From Bacillota bacterium (lineage in GTDB: Bacteria; Bacillota; Clostridia; Peptostreptococcales; Anaerovoracaceae), in the NCBI GenBank assembly GCA_017432725.1, contig JAFRIQ010000030.1, forward strand, positions 1 to 40,752: DNA of 40,752 nucleotides, read 5' to 3'. The notes below the pieces were generated by a model. The model did no database searches and was not told where the DNA came from. It saw only the letters and a program-made list of their open reading frames with translations. This document shows positions 29,493 through 34,777 of this stretch, piece by piece; positions within the stretch are counted from its first letter, which is position 1; the number at the start of each line of letters is the position of its first letter. A program made the translations under genes and the position numbers.

Positions 29493-32400
29493 ATGAAACG
29501 AACAGATATCAAAAAGATAATGATCATAGGTTCCGGTCCCATTGTCATAGGACAGGCGGCTGAATTCGACTATGCAGGAACGCAGGCCTGCCTGGCCCTC
29601 AAAGAAGAAGGTTATCAGGTAATACTGGTAAATTCCAATCCTGCCACCATCATGACCGACACATCAATTGCGGACAAGGTGTACATGGAGCCGCTGACCC
29701 TTGAATACGTGGCCAAAATAATCAGATACGAACGCCCCGACGCCATACTCCCCGGTATAGGCGGACAGACAGGTCTCAACCTCGCCATGCAGCTCAACAA
29801 CAAAGGGATACTTGCCGAATGCGGCGTAGAACTTCTCGGTACCAGCAGCGAAAGCATAGAAAAAGCAGAAGACCGCGAACTCTTCAAGGAAATGTGCATA
29901 TCCATAGGAGAACCGGTAATACCTTCCGAGATAACCTACAGCATCGACGAAGCAAAGGCTGCCGCCCTCAAGATAGGATATCCCGTCGTGCTCAGGCCTG
30001 CATTCACCCTAGGCGGTACCGGAGGCGGATTCGCCAACAATGAAAAAGAACTCGAAGAAATAGGCAAAAACGCTTTCGCTCTTTCCCCCGTGCATCAGGT
30101 GCTCATAGAAAAGAGCGTAAAAGGATATAAAGAAATAGAATTCGAAGTCATGAGAGACGGCAACGACAAAGCCATTACCATATGCGGTATGGAAAACGTC
30201 GATCCCGTAGGAGTCCACACGGGAGATTCCATAGTTGTCGCTCCCATACTGTCCCTTTCAGACTCGGATTTCAAAATGCTCAATGACAGTGCGATCAAGA
30301 TCATTAGAGAGCTCAAGATATCCGGCGGATGCAACGTCCAGTTCGCATTGAACCCGGACAGCAGCGAATATTATCTCATCGAAGTAAATCCGAGGGTATC
30401 GCGTTCATCGGCCCTCGCATCCAAGGCATCCGGTTATCCCATAGCAAGGGTAACGGCAAAAATAGCGGTGGGCATGTCTTTAGACGAGATTCCCGTTGCG
30501 GGAGGCTTTGCTTCGACAGAACCGTCTCTTGACTATATCGTTGCTAAATTCCCAAGGTTCCCCTTCGACAAATTCACCACCGTACCCAACGTACTCGGTA
30601 CGCAGATGAAAGCGACAGGCGAAGTCATGGGCATAGGCTCGAATCTTGAGGAATGCATGCTCAAATCCGTAAGGTCCCTCGAGATCGGAGCATATCACTT
30701 CAGCCTGCGTAAATTCGATGAGTGGAACAAAGAAGACCTTCTCTCGTACGTCGGAGAATTCCACGATGATAACGTCTTCGCCATCTTCAAACTTATACGC
30801 ATGGGAGAAAGCCTTGAAAAACTCCATGAGATCACCATGATCACTCCTCTTTTCCTCGAATCCTTCAAAAAGATCGTGGATATGGAAACGGAGATCTCAA
30901 GAAGCCACGGCATAGATACTTTAAGAGAAGCCAAGAAAATGGGCTTCTCTGACAGATATATAGCAGAGCATTGGAACATAGATGAAAAAGACGTCTATAT
31001 GCTCAGGAAACTGCACGGGATAATCCCTTCCTTCAGGATGGTAGACACCCTGCACACGGGAAAATATATAGCATACCTCTATTCTTCCTACAGCGGAGAG
31101 AACCAGTCGAAACTGGGCAACAAGAAAAAGATCATCGTCATAGGCGCAGGTCCCATCAGGATAGGCCAGGGCGTAGAGTTCGACTACTCCACGGTCCATG
31201 CGGTCCAGACCATAAGAAGAGCCGGCTACGAAGCCATAATCATCAACAACAACCCTGAAACGGTGTCAACTGACTACACCACTTCCGACAAGCTGTATTT
31301 CGATCCTCTGACTCCCGAAGACGTTATGGAGATCATTGATTACGAGCAGGCGGACGGAGTCATAGTGACCCTCGGCGGACAGACAGCCATAAACCTGGCA
31401 GAGCCTTTAGCCGCGCGCGGCGTAAAACTCATAGGAACGGACTGCGAATCCATAGACAAGGCCGAGAACCGCGACAGTTTCGAAAAGATACTCAAAGACC
31501 TGAACATACCCCAGCCTCAGGGAAGAGCCGTAACCACCATAGAAGACGGTATAAAGGCTGCCAACGAAGTCGGATATCCGGTACTGGTAAGGCCAAGCTT
31601 CGTTCTCGGCGGAAGAGCGATGGAGATAGTCGCAAACGACGAGATGCTGAAGCATTATCTCAAAAACGCAGTTGAGATCGACGCGGATAAGCCCGTGCTC
31701 GTGGACCACTACATCCAGGGCAAGGAAGTAGAAGTAGACGCCATCTGCGACGGATACGACGTATTCGTTCCGGGCATCATGGAACTTGTGGAGCGTACCG
31801 GCGTCCATTCCGGAGACTCCATAAGCGTATATCCTACCTACTCTATTTCCGACAAAGTAAAGGGAACGATACTTCAGTACGCAAAGAAACTGGGTCTCGG
31901 TATAGGGATCATAGGCCTTTTCAACATACAGTTCATCGTAGACAGCAAAGACGACGTATATATCATCGAAGTGAATCCCCGCTCTTCAAGGACCGTTCCG
32001 TTCCTCTCAAAAGCCACGGGATACTCTCTTGCAGATATAGCTACGGAAGTCATACTCGGAAAGACCCTTAAGGAACAGGGGATCTTCGGTATCTATCCTG
32101 ATGAAAAGAAACGCAACTACGTAAAGGTTCCTGTGTTCTCTTCCAACAAGATCAAAGGACTCGACGTCTATCTCTCACCGGAAATGAAATCCACAGGCGA
32201 GGCCATAGGATACGACACTTCCCTTCCGAGAGCTCTTTACAAAGCCCTCCAGGCTTCAGGCATGAAACTGCAGAACTACGGCACCGTTGTCGTAACGCTG
32301 GCAGACGAAGACAAGGATGAAGCTCTTCCCATAGTGAGAAGCTTCTACAACATGGGATTCAACATCGCCGCTACGGCAGGGACGGCAGATTTCCTCAAGA

Positions 32401-32663
32401 CCAACGGGATACGCACCCATAAACTCGGAAAGATCTCTGAAGGAAGCAATGAGATACTCGATTTCATTAGGTCAGGTTTCGTGAGCTACGTCATAAACAC
32501 GAGGTCCATGACGTCCGGGATCCATTTTGTCGACGGCGCGGAAATAAGGCGCTGCGCCAATGAAAACGGAGTGACCATATTCACTTCTCTGGACACGGTC
32601 AGGATAGTCACTGAAGTGCTCGAGGAGATGACCATTTCCGTATCGACCATAGACGCTGAATAA
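29493..32663 (+). CDS. carB: carbamoyl-phosphate synthase large subunit
   Basis: The 1056-aa protein has both ATP-grasp halves, each starting with a matching motif: KKIMIIGSGPIVIGQAAEFD and KKIIVIGAGPIRIGQGVEFD (about residue 545). The C-terminal MGS-like allosteric domain (about 930-1056) is present. It makes carbamoyl phosphate from bicarbonate, ammonia and 2 ATP. Ammonia normally comes from CarA, which is not in this operon; it must lie elsewhere or the enzyme uses free ammonia. GCGAGGTTAAA precedes the ATG. Its last 39 nt before the stop recur at 33274-33312. Confidence 0.97.
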   Translation: MKRTDIKKIMIIGSGPIVIGQAAEFDYAGTQACLALKEEGYQVILVNSNPATIMTDTSIADKVYMEPLTLEYVAKIIRYERPDAILPGIGGQTGLNLAMQLNNKGILAECGVELLGTSSESIEKAEDRELFKEMCISIGEPVIPSEITYSIDEAKAAALKIGYPVVLRPAFTLGGTGGGFANNEKELEEIGKNAFALSPVHQVLIEKSVKGYKEIEFEVMRDGNDKAITICGMENVDPVGVHTGDSIVVAPILSLSDSDFKMLNDSAIKIIRELKISGGCNVQFALNPDSSEYYLIEVNPRVSRSSALASKASGYPIARVTAKIAVGMSLDEIPVAGGFASTEPSLDYIVAKFPRFPFDKFTTVPNVLGTQMKATGEVMGIGSNLEECMLKSVRSLEIGAYHFSLRKFDEWNKEDLLSYVGEFHDDNVFAIFKLIRMGESLEKLHEITMITPLFLESFKKIVDMETEISRSHGIDTLREAKKMGFSDRYIAEHWNIDEKDVYMLRKLHGIIPSFRMVDTLHTGKYIAYLYSSYSGENQSKLGNKKKIIVIGAGPIRIGQGVEFDYSTVHAVQTIRRAGYEAIIINNNPETVSTDYTTSDKLYFDPLTPEDVMEIIDYEQADGVIVTLGGQTAINLAEPLAARGVKLIGTDCESIDKAENRDSFEKILKDLNIPQPQGRAVTTIEDGIKAANEVGYPVLVRPSFVLGGRAMEIVANDEMLKHYLKNAVEIDADKPVLVDHYIQGKEVEVDAICDGYDVFVPGIMELVERTGVHSGDSISVYPTYSISDKVKGTILQYAKKLGLGIGIIGLFNIQFIVDSKDDVYIIEVNPRSSRTVPFLSKATGYSLADIATEVILGKTLKEQGIFGIYPDEKKRNYVKVPVFSSNKIKGLDVYLSPEMKSTGEAIGYDTSLPRALYKALQASGMKLQNYGTVVVTLADEDKDEALPIVRSFYNMGFNIAATAGTADFLKTNGIRTHKLGKISEGSNEILDFIRSGFVSYVINTRSMTSGIHFVDGAEIRRCANENGVTIFTSLDTVRIVTEVLEEMTISVSTIDAE
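32622..32660 (+). repeat. copy 1 of the carB 3' end repeat
   Basis: The last 13 sense codons of carB (encoding EEMTISVSTIDAE), followed by TAACAAAAAAG. It matches 33274-33312 at 36 of 39 positions. Confidence 0.93.
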
Positions 32664-32688
32664 CAAAAAAGCGGCACGAAATGAAGTG

Positions 32689-32729
32689 AACCCCTTTCGT
32701 TAGAAAAAAATCTAATGAAAGGGGTTTTT
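32689..32729 (+). terminator. terminator after carB
   Basis: AACCCCTTTCGTTAG pairs with CTAATGAAAGGGGTT (one G-T pair) around an A-rich loop, followed by TTTTTAA. It lies within the stretch bounded by the two carB-end copies. Confidence 0.9.
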
Positions 32730-32827
32730 AAGTGTCTGGAAAGATAAAGTAGAGTAATGAATTTAAGCGCCGCATGTGTTAAAGTGATGTTGTAGTAGTG
32801 TTTTAATAGTCGCATGGAGGAAGAGAA

Positions 32828-33283
32828 ATGGATAAAAAGACAAATCTGATACAGACGTTTTTCATGTCTGTCCTGTTTTCAGTGATCTTTACGGCAGTAG
32901 GATACTTCATGTCCCCCGCCGATCCGGTAAATGTATCGATCCAGTTTGTTGTAGGTCTTATTGTAGGAATGGCTGTCAGCCTCATCATTCCTGTGGGCGA
33001 GATAGGATCTGCCGTAGCTTCCAAACTCAGCGCACCGGGAAGCCCGGCATTCAGCTTTTTTATGTTCAATACCATACTTCTGATAATGCTGGTCTTTATG
33101 TGCCCGATCATGGCTGTCATTTTCGGCTGCGTCTTAGGCGGGGCACCGCTGCCTGCTATTCTGCACGGAGCATACGGCAACTTTGTCCCCTTCTATATCT
33201 GTGGAGCCCTGGCGATGCAGCTTCTGGGAACAAAGATCTCAAAGTTGTCGGCCTATCTGGCTCATCCTGAAATGAGGAGATGA
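32828..33283 (+). CDS. unrecognised four-helix membrane protein
   Basis: I do not recognise this 151-aa protein. About four membrane helices are visible (near residues 8-27, 36-58, 77-105 and 110-132), with a conserved-looking GAYGNFVPFYICGALAM in the last part. ATGGAGGAAGAG gives a good ribosome binding site. The 164 nt before it hold the carB terminator and a weak promoter (TTAAAG-17-TTTAAT). Its last codons and TGA stop (EMRR-stop) lie inside the second copy of the carB 3' end, out of frame with carB, so its natural C-terminus may have been lost at that junction. It looks like cargo of an insertion rather than part of the pyr operon. Confidence 0.7.
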   Translation: MDKKTNLIQTFFMSVLFSVIFTAVGYFMSPADPVNVSIQFVVGLIVGMAVSLIIPVGEIGSAVASKLSAPGSPAFSFFMFNTILLIMLVFMCPIMAVIFGCVLGGAPLPAILHGAYGNFVPFYICGALAMQLLGTKISKLSAYLAHPEMRR

Positions 33284-33312
33284 CCATTTCGGTATCGACT
33301 ATAGACGCAGAA
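33274..33312 (+). repeat. copy 2 of the carB 3' end (gene remnant)
   Basis: This non-coding stretch still reads EEMTISVSTIDAE in frame, then CAA instead of TAA. Against carB it differs at 3 of 39 positions (TCC/TCG, ACC/ACT, GCT/GCA), all third-position and silent. Similar sequence continues for about 12 nt (CAAACAAAAAAAG against TAACAAAAAAG). Confidence 0.93.
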
Positions 33313-33317
33313 CAAAC

Positions 33318-33350
33318 AAAAAAAGAGCCCTGCAAAGCAGGGCAATTTTT
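33318..33350. terminator. bidirectional terminator beyond the carB remnant
   Basis: GCCCTGC (33327-33333) pairs with GCAGGGC (33337-33343) around AAA. TTTTT follows on the right and a run of seven A lies on the left. It can stop rightward pyr transcription and leftward transcription of the UroD-family operon. Confidence 0.88.
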
Positions 33351-33356
33351 CTGTTT

Positions 33357-33494
33357 TTAAAGTGTTACCAGCATAGAGACCATTCCGATAACAGCCTGTT
33401 TTCTTCCCGCCATATTATCCTCGGGAAGAGGAGACGGCATTTCCTTTGCAAGGGCTTCAACGTCCTGCTCGAAGTTTTCAAACTTGATTATCAT
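33357..33494 (-). CDS. unrecognised 45-aa protein downstream of the UroD-family gene
   Basis: A short reading frame with ATG at 33494 and TAA at 33357 encodes 45 residues: MIIKFENFEQDVEALAKEMP, then a Pro-rich SPLPEDN turn, and a hydrophobic helix (QAVIGMVSMLVTL). The ribosome binding site AATAGGAGGTAGCAAA is among the best in the window, which argues strongly that it is translated. It starts 14 nt after the UroD-family stop and ends just before a terminator, so it is the second gene of that operon. The family is unknown; an accessory or regulatory peptide of the methyltransferase is possible. Confidence 0.72.
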   Translation of the reverse strand: MIIKFENFEQDVEALAKEMPSPLPEDNMAGRKQAVIGMVSMLVTL

Positions 33495-33508
33495 TTTGCT
33501 ACCTCCTA

Positions 33509-34711
33509 TTAAACTCTGTTATTGTAATCCCTGAGCCAGTTGCAGACTGCCAGAAGGTTCTGTCTGTTGGAGTCGAACGGATAAGATACAAGTCTGTTCT
33601 CGCAGAAGATGTATCCGCCGTCAACGGAGAAATCTTTGACCAGTTTTTCGGTCCTGGCAACGCACTCTTCGGGTGTTCCGTATCCGAGCATATGGGTGTC
33701 CATTCCGCCTATGATTCCGGCCTTCGGACATTTTTCTCTGATCTCGTAAACATCATCTACATCCAGGTGCAGGAAAAGCATTCCCTTTCTGTAGTCGTTG
33801 ATCCTGTCGAGAAGTATCTTTGCAGAGCCTTCCGTGAAGAGTCTCATGGAGATTCCGGGATGCTCTTCGAGGATATCGTAGTTTACTTTGATATACGGCC
33901 AGTAGAACTCTTCGAACTGCTTGGGGTTCATGACTGTATGTGCAAGATAAACGTTGTCTCCGTCGAACAGAGCAGTCTGTGTATGCTGGTTGTCGATATT
34001 CTTCCATGCGGCCTTGACGCCTTCTATGGCAGCCGGAGGAAGGATAGCATCCATCATTGCATGAAGCTCGGATTTATGTCTTCTCATATCAAGCGAGAAG
34101 TTCTTGATCCCTCTGTAATGAGAGAAGATAGATTCTGCGGGGCAATATACCAGCGGTCCTTTATAGTCCATGCATCTGGGCATACCGTAATTGTCGTAAA
34201 GTTCCTGAGGCATTCTCTGGCAAAAAGCCATGAAGTCGCCGATCTCTTTCTGAAGTTGCTTAAAGAACTCGAGATCTACGCCTGCGGCAAGTTTCGGATA
34301 CTTTCTGGGGATGCACTTTTCCCACTGGAATTTCTGCGGATTGGCTGCGAATTCCATCATCTCATCGTCGTTGACGGTCGGGAAGTCAGTTACCTGAATG
34401 GACCAGGCATCGTCATCGACTTTGTAAACGGAAGAACCTGCCAGCTCCGTGATCCTCCACTGGTTACGGTTGCTGTACTCGATGAAAGTATCAAAGCCAT
34501 ATCTCTCTTCAAACTCATTCGTGAGTTTTGCCATCAGATCGTAATCCAGCATAGCTTCGGAAAGCTTGCACTTAAGATCTGAATCGTACACCTTCCACGT
34601 TACGTAGAACGAAAGGTTAGGTACGTACGTCTGGCCGGGATGATAACTCATAGCGTCCTGGAAGTACATACGTCTTCTTTGGAGCAATGCATCTCTTTCT
34701 TGTTCGTTCAT
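33509..34711 (-). CDS. uroporphyrinogen decarboxylase-family protein (methyltransferase-like)
   Basis: The 400-aa protein has the UroD-type TIM barrel in its C-terminal two thirds (EHPGISMRLFTEGSAKILLD, then CPKAGIIGGMDTHMLG and YGTPEECVARTEKLVKDF). It does not show the N-terminal arginine motif of haem-pathway HemE and no haem genes are near. Many clostridial relatives are corrinoid-dependent methyltransferases (MtaA/MtbA type), so methyl transfer is a reasonable inference, but no corrinoid protein gene is adjacent. I chose the ATG at 34711 because AAAGGAATAACA lies ahead; upstream ATGs lack a ribosome binding site. The promoter overlaps a perfect 18-bp palindrome, which suggests a repressor. 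It is followed by the 45-aa gene. Confidence 0.78.
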   Translation of the reverse strand: MNEQERDALLQRRRMYFQDAMSYHPGQTYVPNLSFYVTWKVYDSDLKCKLSEAMLDYDLMAKLTNEFEERYGFDTFIEYSNRNQWRITELAGSSVYKVDDDAWSIQVTDFPTVNDDEMMEFAANPQKFQWEKCIPRKYPKLAAGVDLEFFKQLQKEIGDFMAFCQRMPQELYDNYGMPRCMDYKGPLVYCPAESIFSHYRGIKNFSLDMRRHKSELHAMMDAILPPAAIEGVKAAWKNIDNQHTQTALFDGDNVYLAHTVMNPKQFEEFYWPYIKVNYDILEEHPGISMRLFTEGSAKILLDRINDYRKGMLFLHLDVDDVYEIREKCPKAGIIGGMDTHMLGYGTPEECVARTEKLVKDFSVDGGYIFCENRLVSYPFDSNRQNLLAVCNWLRDYNNRV

Positions 34712-34749
34712 TGTTATTCCTTTCTTCATTTGAATATTAAAAAATACCA

Positions 34750-34777
34750 AATATAGTATACTATATTAGCCTGTCGA
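34750..34777 (-). promoter_or_regulatory. promoter with overlapping palindromic operator
   Basis: On the minus strand TCGACA (34777-34772), a 16-bp spacer and TATATT (34755-34750). The spacer and -10 contain the perfect palindrome AATATAGTATACTATATT (34750-34767), an arrangement typical of a repressor operator. Confidence 0.6.

Follow-up and report, generated by a model that had tools for sequence, protein, structure and literature searches.

The window, a stretch of 40,752 nt from a draft genome of the family Anaerovoracaceae (G000; 68 contigs, 75% complete), carries a run of pyrimidine genes on the plus strand that ends with carB (29493–32663; identified from its open reading frame and translation), encoding the large chain of carbamoyl-phosphate synthase. 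It is preceded by a pyrB-type gene and other pyrimidine genes (Pfam), and the best relatives of its protein are found at 75–93% identity. The 13 codons that precede the carB stop (32622–32660; copy 1) recur on the same strand at 33274–33312 (copy 2). The copies lie 652 nt apart, and the 613 nt between them contain, all on the plus strand, what is probably the surviving 5' half of the native carB terminator (T1, 32665–32681), the left end of a decayed IS3-family element (32682–32774) and a gene for a hydrophobic protein of 151 amino acids belonging to an unnamed family (32828–33283). Copy 2 runs into CAA (33313–33315) where carB has its stop TAA, and is followed on the plus strand by a terminator (T2, 33318–33350) consisting of an A-tract, a stem (33327–33343) and a T-run, which is terminator-like on both strands. 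Further to the right, all on the minus strand, lie a 45-aa open reading frame (33357–33494), the URO-D-type gene downstream of which it is located, and thrS.

An earlier note on this DNA had described the repeat as differing only at third codon positions, and this was borne out: in the window sequence 36 of the 39 nt are identical, and the three mismatches (TCC/TCG, ACC/ACT, and GCT/GCA) all fall on third positions. The alignment can be extended to 49 nt at 88%, and both copies continue into AACAAAAAA. The next-best match of the 39-nt end on either strand of the 40.7-kb window reached 25/39, the ends of 14 other plus-strand open reading frames, taken as controls, reached at most 18–22/39 within 1 kb downstream, and a 17-nt core of the repeat occurs exactly only at the two copies in the whole draft genome, with one more match elsewhere that has two mismatches. 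Because of these poor second-best matches, the controls, and the restriction of the core to two places, the repeat is not attributable to chance. Identity is 92% over the 39 coding nt, whereas the terminator arms past the stop differ more (GCGGCAC-GAAA vs. GCCCTGC-AAA).

The copies differ in three of 13 codons, compared with 515 third-position differences over 1057 codons between the window's carB and that of G008, the nearest syntenic genome examined; such a distance would suit a sister lineage nearer than G008. The silent-only pattern consists of three changes and is weak alone, with a chance of approximately (1/3)^3 = 0.04 if all of them arose in a non-coding copy and a higher one if some arose in copy 1. 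Polarising the three differences with the help of G008 was uninformative; both copies differ from it in eight of the 13 codons.

As the earlier note had claimed, the 151-aa reading frame is present and closes inside copy 2, with only its last two codons, the stop and one further base lying there; the 10 nt common to the gene's 3' end and the start of copy 2 (33274–33283, plus strand) are GAGGAGATGA. The note had put the product down as a membrane protein of four helices, a putative structure. No Pfam or NCBIfam family was found above its cut-off for the protein (best, ABC2_membrane, E 0.0031), and one weak homologue of it matched DUF2798 at E 0.034. Proteins matching it at E 0.01 or better occur in 21 of 296 genomes of the family (G000 included), several of which do not look homologous on reading; ten full-length homologues of 155–186 aa, at 18–30% identity, were found in other genera of the family. 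Since these end within approximately 10 residues of the same point, except for two with longer tails, the window's gene is not clearly truncated and its end may be natural. Its GC3 of 0.553 is host-like (0.48–0.59 in nine neighbours), and composition gave no sign of a foreign origin. A viral source was dropped, as no relative was present in the viral contig collection. A strict scan returned no promoter for the gene.

The insertion sequence remnant behind carB

The earlier note had seen a terminator after each copy. This was right for T2. The hairpin that follows copy 1, by contrast, belongs to a decayed IS3-family element, whose left tip it forms, and is not carB's own terminator; half of the latter appears to be left as T1. 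The window aligns at 32682–32774 to positions 1–94 of a profile built from 16 full or partial copies of the insertion sequence (IS) with an E value of 1.4e-21 (nhmmer). Comparison of positions 31900–34750 with ten other genomes of the genus gave 12 matches just after carB, nine of them within approximately 160 nt of a contig end and eight with alignments starting at 32680–32682; crowding at contig ends indicates repeat-like behaviour, and some congeners carry several copies. The element starts 18 nt past the carB stop, after an A-tract and a GC arm. The assignment of T1 was made based on its sequence and on the flanks of sibling copies: the interrupted remnant AAAAAA-GCGGCAC-GAAA comprises an A-tract, the GC arm GCGGCAC and the loop GAAA, and the same layout is found to the left of most sibling copies.

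Members of the IS3 family have imperfect inverted repeats starting with 5'-TG and ending with CA-3', two open reading frames and a target duplication of 3–5 bp. The intact relatives agree with this, with two open reading frames in different frames (as read from copy L183), inverted-repeat ends and a short duplication. Six full copies measure 1453–1463 bp and end in TGAAGTGAACCCC (altered at one base in one copy) and in TGGGGTCAGTTCA or a close variant, and in intact copies the hairpin comes first and is followed by the start of orfA. A 282-aa piece of OrfB from the full copy L183 in genome G135 matched NF033516 (transpos_IS3) at E 3.8e-101, with 339 bits against a cut-off of 160. The copy in the window is not a complete element but 93 bp of the left end, with a remnant of the orfA start at 32732–32752 (plus strand, from comparison with intact copies) whose frame stops after six codons. 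Neither the right end nor OrfB had a match in G000, which is 75% complete, and the exact 22-nt left tip is single-copy in this incomplete genome.

The hairpin of the left tip (32689–32726) and its T-run, together covering 32688–32727 of the plus strand, are intact. Folding gave a 17-bp stem of −25 kcal/mol with a z-score of −8.2, and the tip may now serve as the terminator of carB. In contig 115 of G008 (C115, approximately 2902–2953; L189/L147), a solo left-tip hairpin of approximately 54 bp stands after a GC arm, with the rest of the element gone; it would be a second dead tip persisting as a terminator-like hairpin. The structure of the hairpin, and the fact that it has survived both in the window and on this contig, suggest that the tip can replace the terminator broken by the insertion.

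Insertion sites of the element in the genus

Ten loci were checked for full copies, six of which had a recognisable right end and four did not. In five of the six full copies, the rejoined flanks form a strong hairpin whose loop holds the insertion, and there is a target duplication of 3 bp (four copies) or 4 bp (one copy); the sixth, L183, showed neither a duplication nor a rejoined hairpin. With copies mostly split over contig ends, 24 left flanks were also paired with 28 right flanks. The last and first 3 nt were shared in 16.3% of 86 same-genome combinations vs. 2.2% of 586 different-genome combinations. A duplication of 3 or 4 nt was present in 16 of the same-genome pairs; 12 of these (11 distinct left flanks) folded at −14 kcal/mol or below and four folded weakly. 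The same threshold was reached by 1 of 14 pairs from different genomes and, among 48-nt windows drawn at random from the same loci, by 12.8%.

The left flanks were also scored for an A-tract followed by a GC arm: the mean over 34 distinct left flanks (window included) was 10.9 vs. 8.2 over 6,800 positions taken at random from these loci, and a score of at least 12 was reached by 11 of the 34 flanks vs. 1.0% of controls. Low-scoring flanks near the control mean were L192 (7), L183 and L194 (both 9), yet the flanks of L194 rejoin to a terminator. In 21 of the 34, an open reading frame of at least 60 aa, judged by length only, lies on the strand of the IS and has its end no more than 60 nt from the left tip. 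The target arms vary in sequence between sites and most have A- and T-tracts, as terminators do; judged from these arm sequences, the targets are not of the REP kind. In genome G159, one copy sits inside the loop of the left-tip hairpin of another, with the duplication AAT. Its halves are on different contigs (L237, G159:C20; L218, G159:C9, which carries the right half), so that we infer their pairing; the arrangement suggests that the element treats its own tip hairpin as a target.

A group of 13 distant, plasmid-borne relatives has 58–63% OrfB identity, and both ends were found in ten of them. Rejoining at z −4 or below, with z-values from mononucleotide shuffles, was observed in four of the ten (L231, L232, L235, L248); L243 (z −3.3) and L247 (z −2.9) were intermediate, and L249 (−1.6), L246 (−0.7), L234 (0.4), and L245 (0.7) did not rejoin.

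Two miniature forms were also encountered. At L199 (G045:C35, 11313–11365), a 53-bp palindrome pairs the IS tip with its mirror image, is flanked by the complementary arms gacccctcgctc and gagcgaggg, and would fit a MITE-like derivative in a hairpin loop. At L177 (G223:C4, approximately 63398–63419), an element of approximately 50 bp combines an IS-like left tip with right-end-like sequence and is possibly another miniature derivative. We consider it probable that this IS3 lineage recognises terminators by their hairpin form, inserts into the loop behind genes and brings its own left-tip terminator in place of the broken one.

Origin of the two-copy arrangement

The gene order of G008 matches that of the window on both sides, its carB protein is 93% identical, and nucleotide similarity runs to the carB stop and resumes at 33391. 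The 45-aa open reading frame, which has a counterpart in G008, would accordingly mark the start of the undisturbed right flank. Between the flanks, G008 has no second carB end and carries another gene of 111 aa (L114, 4953–5288, minus strand), the product of which showed no similarity to the 151-aa protein on direct comparison and had no match in the other 40 genomes searched. As the two syntenic genomes carry unlike single genes there, the slot behind carB is variable between them.

In a scan of 104 distinct carB loci, a second carB end was found in the window only and in none of the 103 others. The scan covered 200–4000 nt downstream, leaving aside loci whose downstream sequence was shorter than 200 nt, those with identical ends, and the copies of the window (L001, L082, L084). 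The best match elsewhere was 25/39, compared to up to 26/39 for reverse-complement and 24/39 for shuffled controls; with downstream stretches as short as 200 nt, short loci could conceal a copy. The order expected of a donor (carB, IS remnant, 151-aa gene) and an empty recipient site were both absent among the genomes examined. Genome G013 holds two carB pieces (C22 and C42) with 80–85% identity, besides another carB at 63%; these may be binning contamination stemming from some relative of the lineage to which the window belongs.

The account towards which we lean, if only by a little, is that a recombination remnant adjoins a transposon remnant, the former left by a one-off event with a related lineage that displaced the old carB end. 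An IS3-family element would have entered the loop of the carB terminator in that other lineage and would later have decayed to its left 93 bp, the remnant and position of which are seen in the window, with a hairpin that may have gone on terminating carB. This carB end, together with the IS remnant and the 151-aa gene, would then have recombined into the ancestor of G000, by homologous recombination within carB on the left and by an illegitimate join on the right at GAGGAGATGA, which occurs both in carB and where the 151-aa gene ends. Such an exchange would need no enzyme of a mobile element. The recipient's own last 13 codons would remain downstream as copy 2, together with T2, and copy 2, with no coding role left, would since have lost its stop.

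That copy 2 is the displaced native end is indicated by its position, without a stop, before a complete terminator and the flank common with G008. The earlier note had concluded from the silent-only differences that copy 2 is the old end of another carB allele. This is still the best reading and the more diverged terminator arms speak for it, but the three changes that the note relied on are weak alone; silent-only changes and more diverged arms together favour two alleles that were once under selection over a fresh duplicate. The microhomology GAGGAGATGA is a candidate for the junction that we propose, and with the donor missing it looks the same as a chance agreement. Because GAGGAGATGA may stem from either source and the 151-aa gene may end naturally, a one-off recombination, homologous to the left and microhomologous to the right, is favoured.

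Duplication of a carB end is in itself an ordinary event, and a tandem duplication with a subsequent deletion would give a like picture. The carB end, terminator and 151-aa gene would have been duplicated at GAGGAGATGA, the second gene lost and copy 2 left to drift, with no foreign allele involved. The possible microhomology at the junction, the continuation of both copies into AACAAAAAA, the host-like composition of the 151-aa gene, and the fact that a second full carB was not seen in the draft genome would all be in agreement with this course. It would require an extra deletion ending just past T2, however, and a fresh duplicate is not expected to have non-coding arms more diverged than its coding part, nor three differences that are all silent (approximately 0.04 if all fell in the dead copy); we regard it as unlikely, though as the most serious rival to recombination between lineages.

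The fragmented state of the draft genome, with its 68 contigs and 75% completeness, raises the question of an assembly chimaera of two strains, a mixture that would also yield two slightly unlike alleles. Its parents would have had only approximately 10–17 identical nt in common at the 33274 junction, and the words commonly used in assembly are longer than this. Both outer flanks are, moreover, syntenic with G008, and a chimaera is accordingly thought quite improbable.

The earlier note had likened the event to what site-specific elements and gene cassettes do, an explanation that fared poorly. Integration of a small element at an attachment site in the carB 3' end, bringing a replacement end with it, would explain the repeat at both ends, the gene end rebuilt with silent changes and the old end beside the old flank. 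No recombinase was recognised in the 613 nt that separate the copies, where the 151-aa frame and two opposite-strand frames gave no Pfam match at E 0.001, and G008 has its insert at the same place without a repeat. The note had also suggested looking for the 151-aa protein next to carB in other genomes, and none of 119 other carB loci (some overlapping) contained a relative. The lack of a recombinase, the 0/103 other loci with a second end and the absence of the protein from these 119 loci make a carB cassette or island unlikely, to a degree that leaves it slightly behind even the chimaera. A rearrangement driven by the IS, in which recombination between copies or an adjacent deletion introduced copy 2 along with the 151-aa gene, is the least credible of all: the IS end does sit exactly between copy 1 and the 151-aa gene and congeners with several copies exist, but no IS sequence is present at the copy-2 junction, the incomplete G000 has neither a right end nor another copy, and an IS alone does not produce a second carB end.

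Comparison with known systems and implications

Palindrome-choosing IS3 elements are already known, and terminator targeting looks new. The elements IS1397 and ISKpn1 insert into the loop of their target with a 3-bp duplication. PMC1525189 names both as members of the IS3 family for which there is experimental evidence of selectivity for REP sequences. The likeness to the present element lies in an IS3-family transposase that prefers palindromes, here too with insertion in a hairpin loop and a short duplication; the targets here, however, are terminator hairpins of varied sequence and not a REP family, and the left tip of the present element forms a hairpin resembling a terminator. According to PMC5678879, IS1272 of the IS1182 group targets inverted repeats of varied sequence and replaces them without a target duplication. 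The varied inverted-repeat targets are shared with the element described here, which belongs to another family, keeps both arms and duplicates 3–4 bp. Terminator hairpins are also the insertion sites of group IIC introns, but these are retroelements with no DDE transposase and no such duplication; the kind of target is thus the same as that of the present IS and the type of element differs. No report of an IS3-family element targeting intrinsic terminators was found in the titles and abstract openings examined from the open-licence PMC literature, where absence does not equal absence from print.

For the recombination proposed at carB, the closest counterpart is homology-facilitated illegitimate recombination, known from transformation experiments, in which homology on one side is combined with a few shared bases on the other. 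It likewise leaves foreign DNA together with part of the recipient sequence behind, whereas the event suggested here is deduced from one natural locus whose parents were not found. Genomic islands at the 3' ends of protein genes are flanked by a silent-only repeat of the gene end, as is the DNA inserted here, but in the present case there is no integrase and no recurrence at the carB loci examined. The duplicated carB end would be a useful example of a partial gene copy with silent differences that may arise without a site-specific element.

If the element does choose terminator hairpins, this would offer a transposon a very large number of safe sites behind genes, and the terminator that it carries would keep the host gene properly ended, making insertions nearly harmless. 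After the death of the element, the tip would persist as a domesticated terminator, as may be the case behind carB. Some 'terminators' recognised by eye are accordingly to be treated with caution, as they may be transposon tips. The preference for terminators would constitute a testable target rule in a common IS family.
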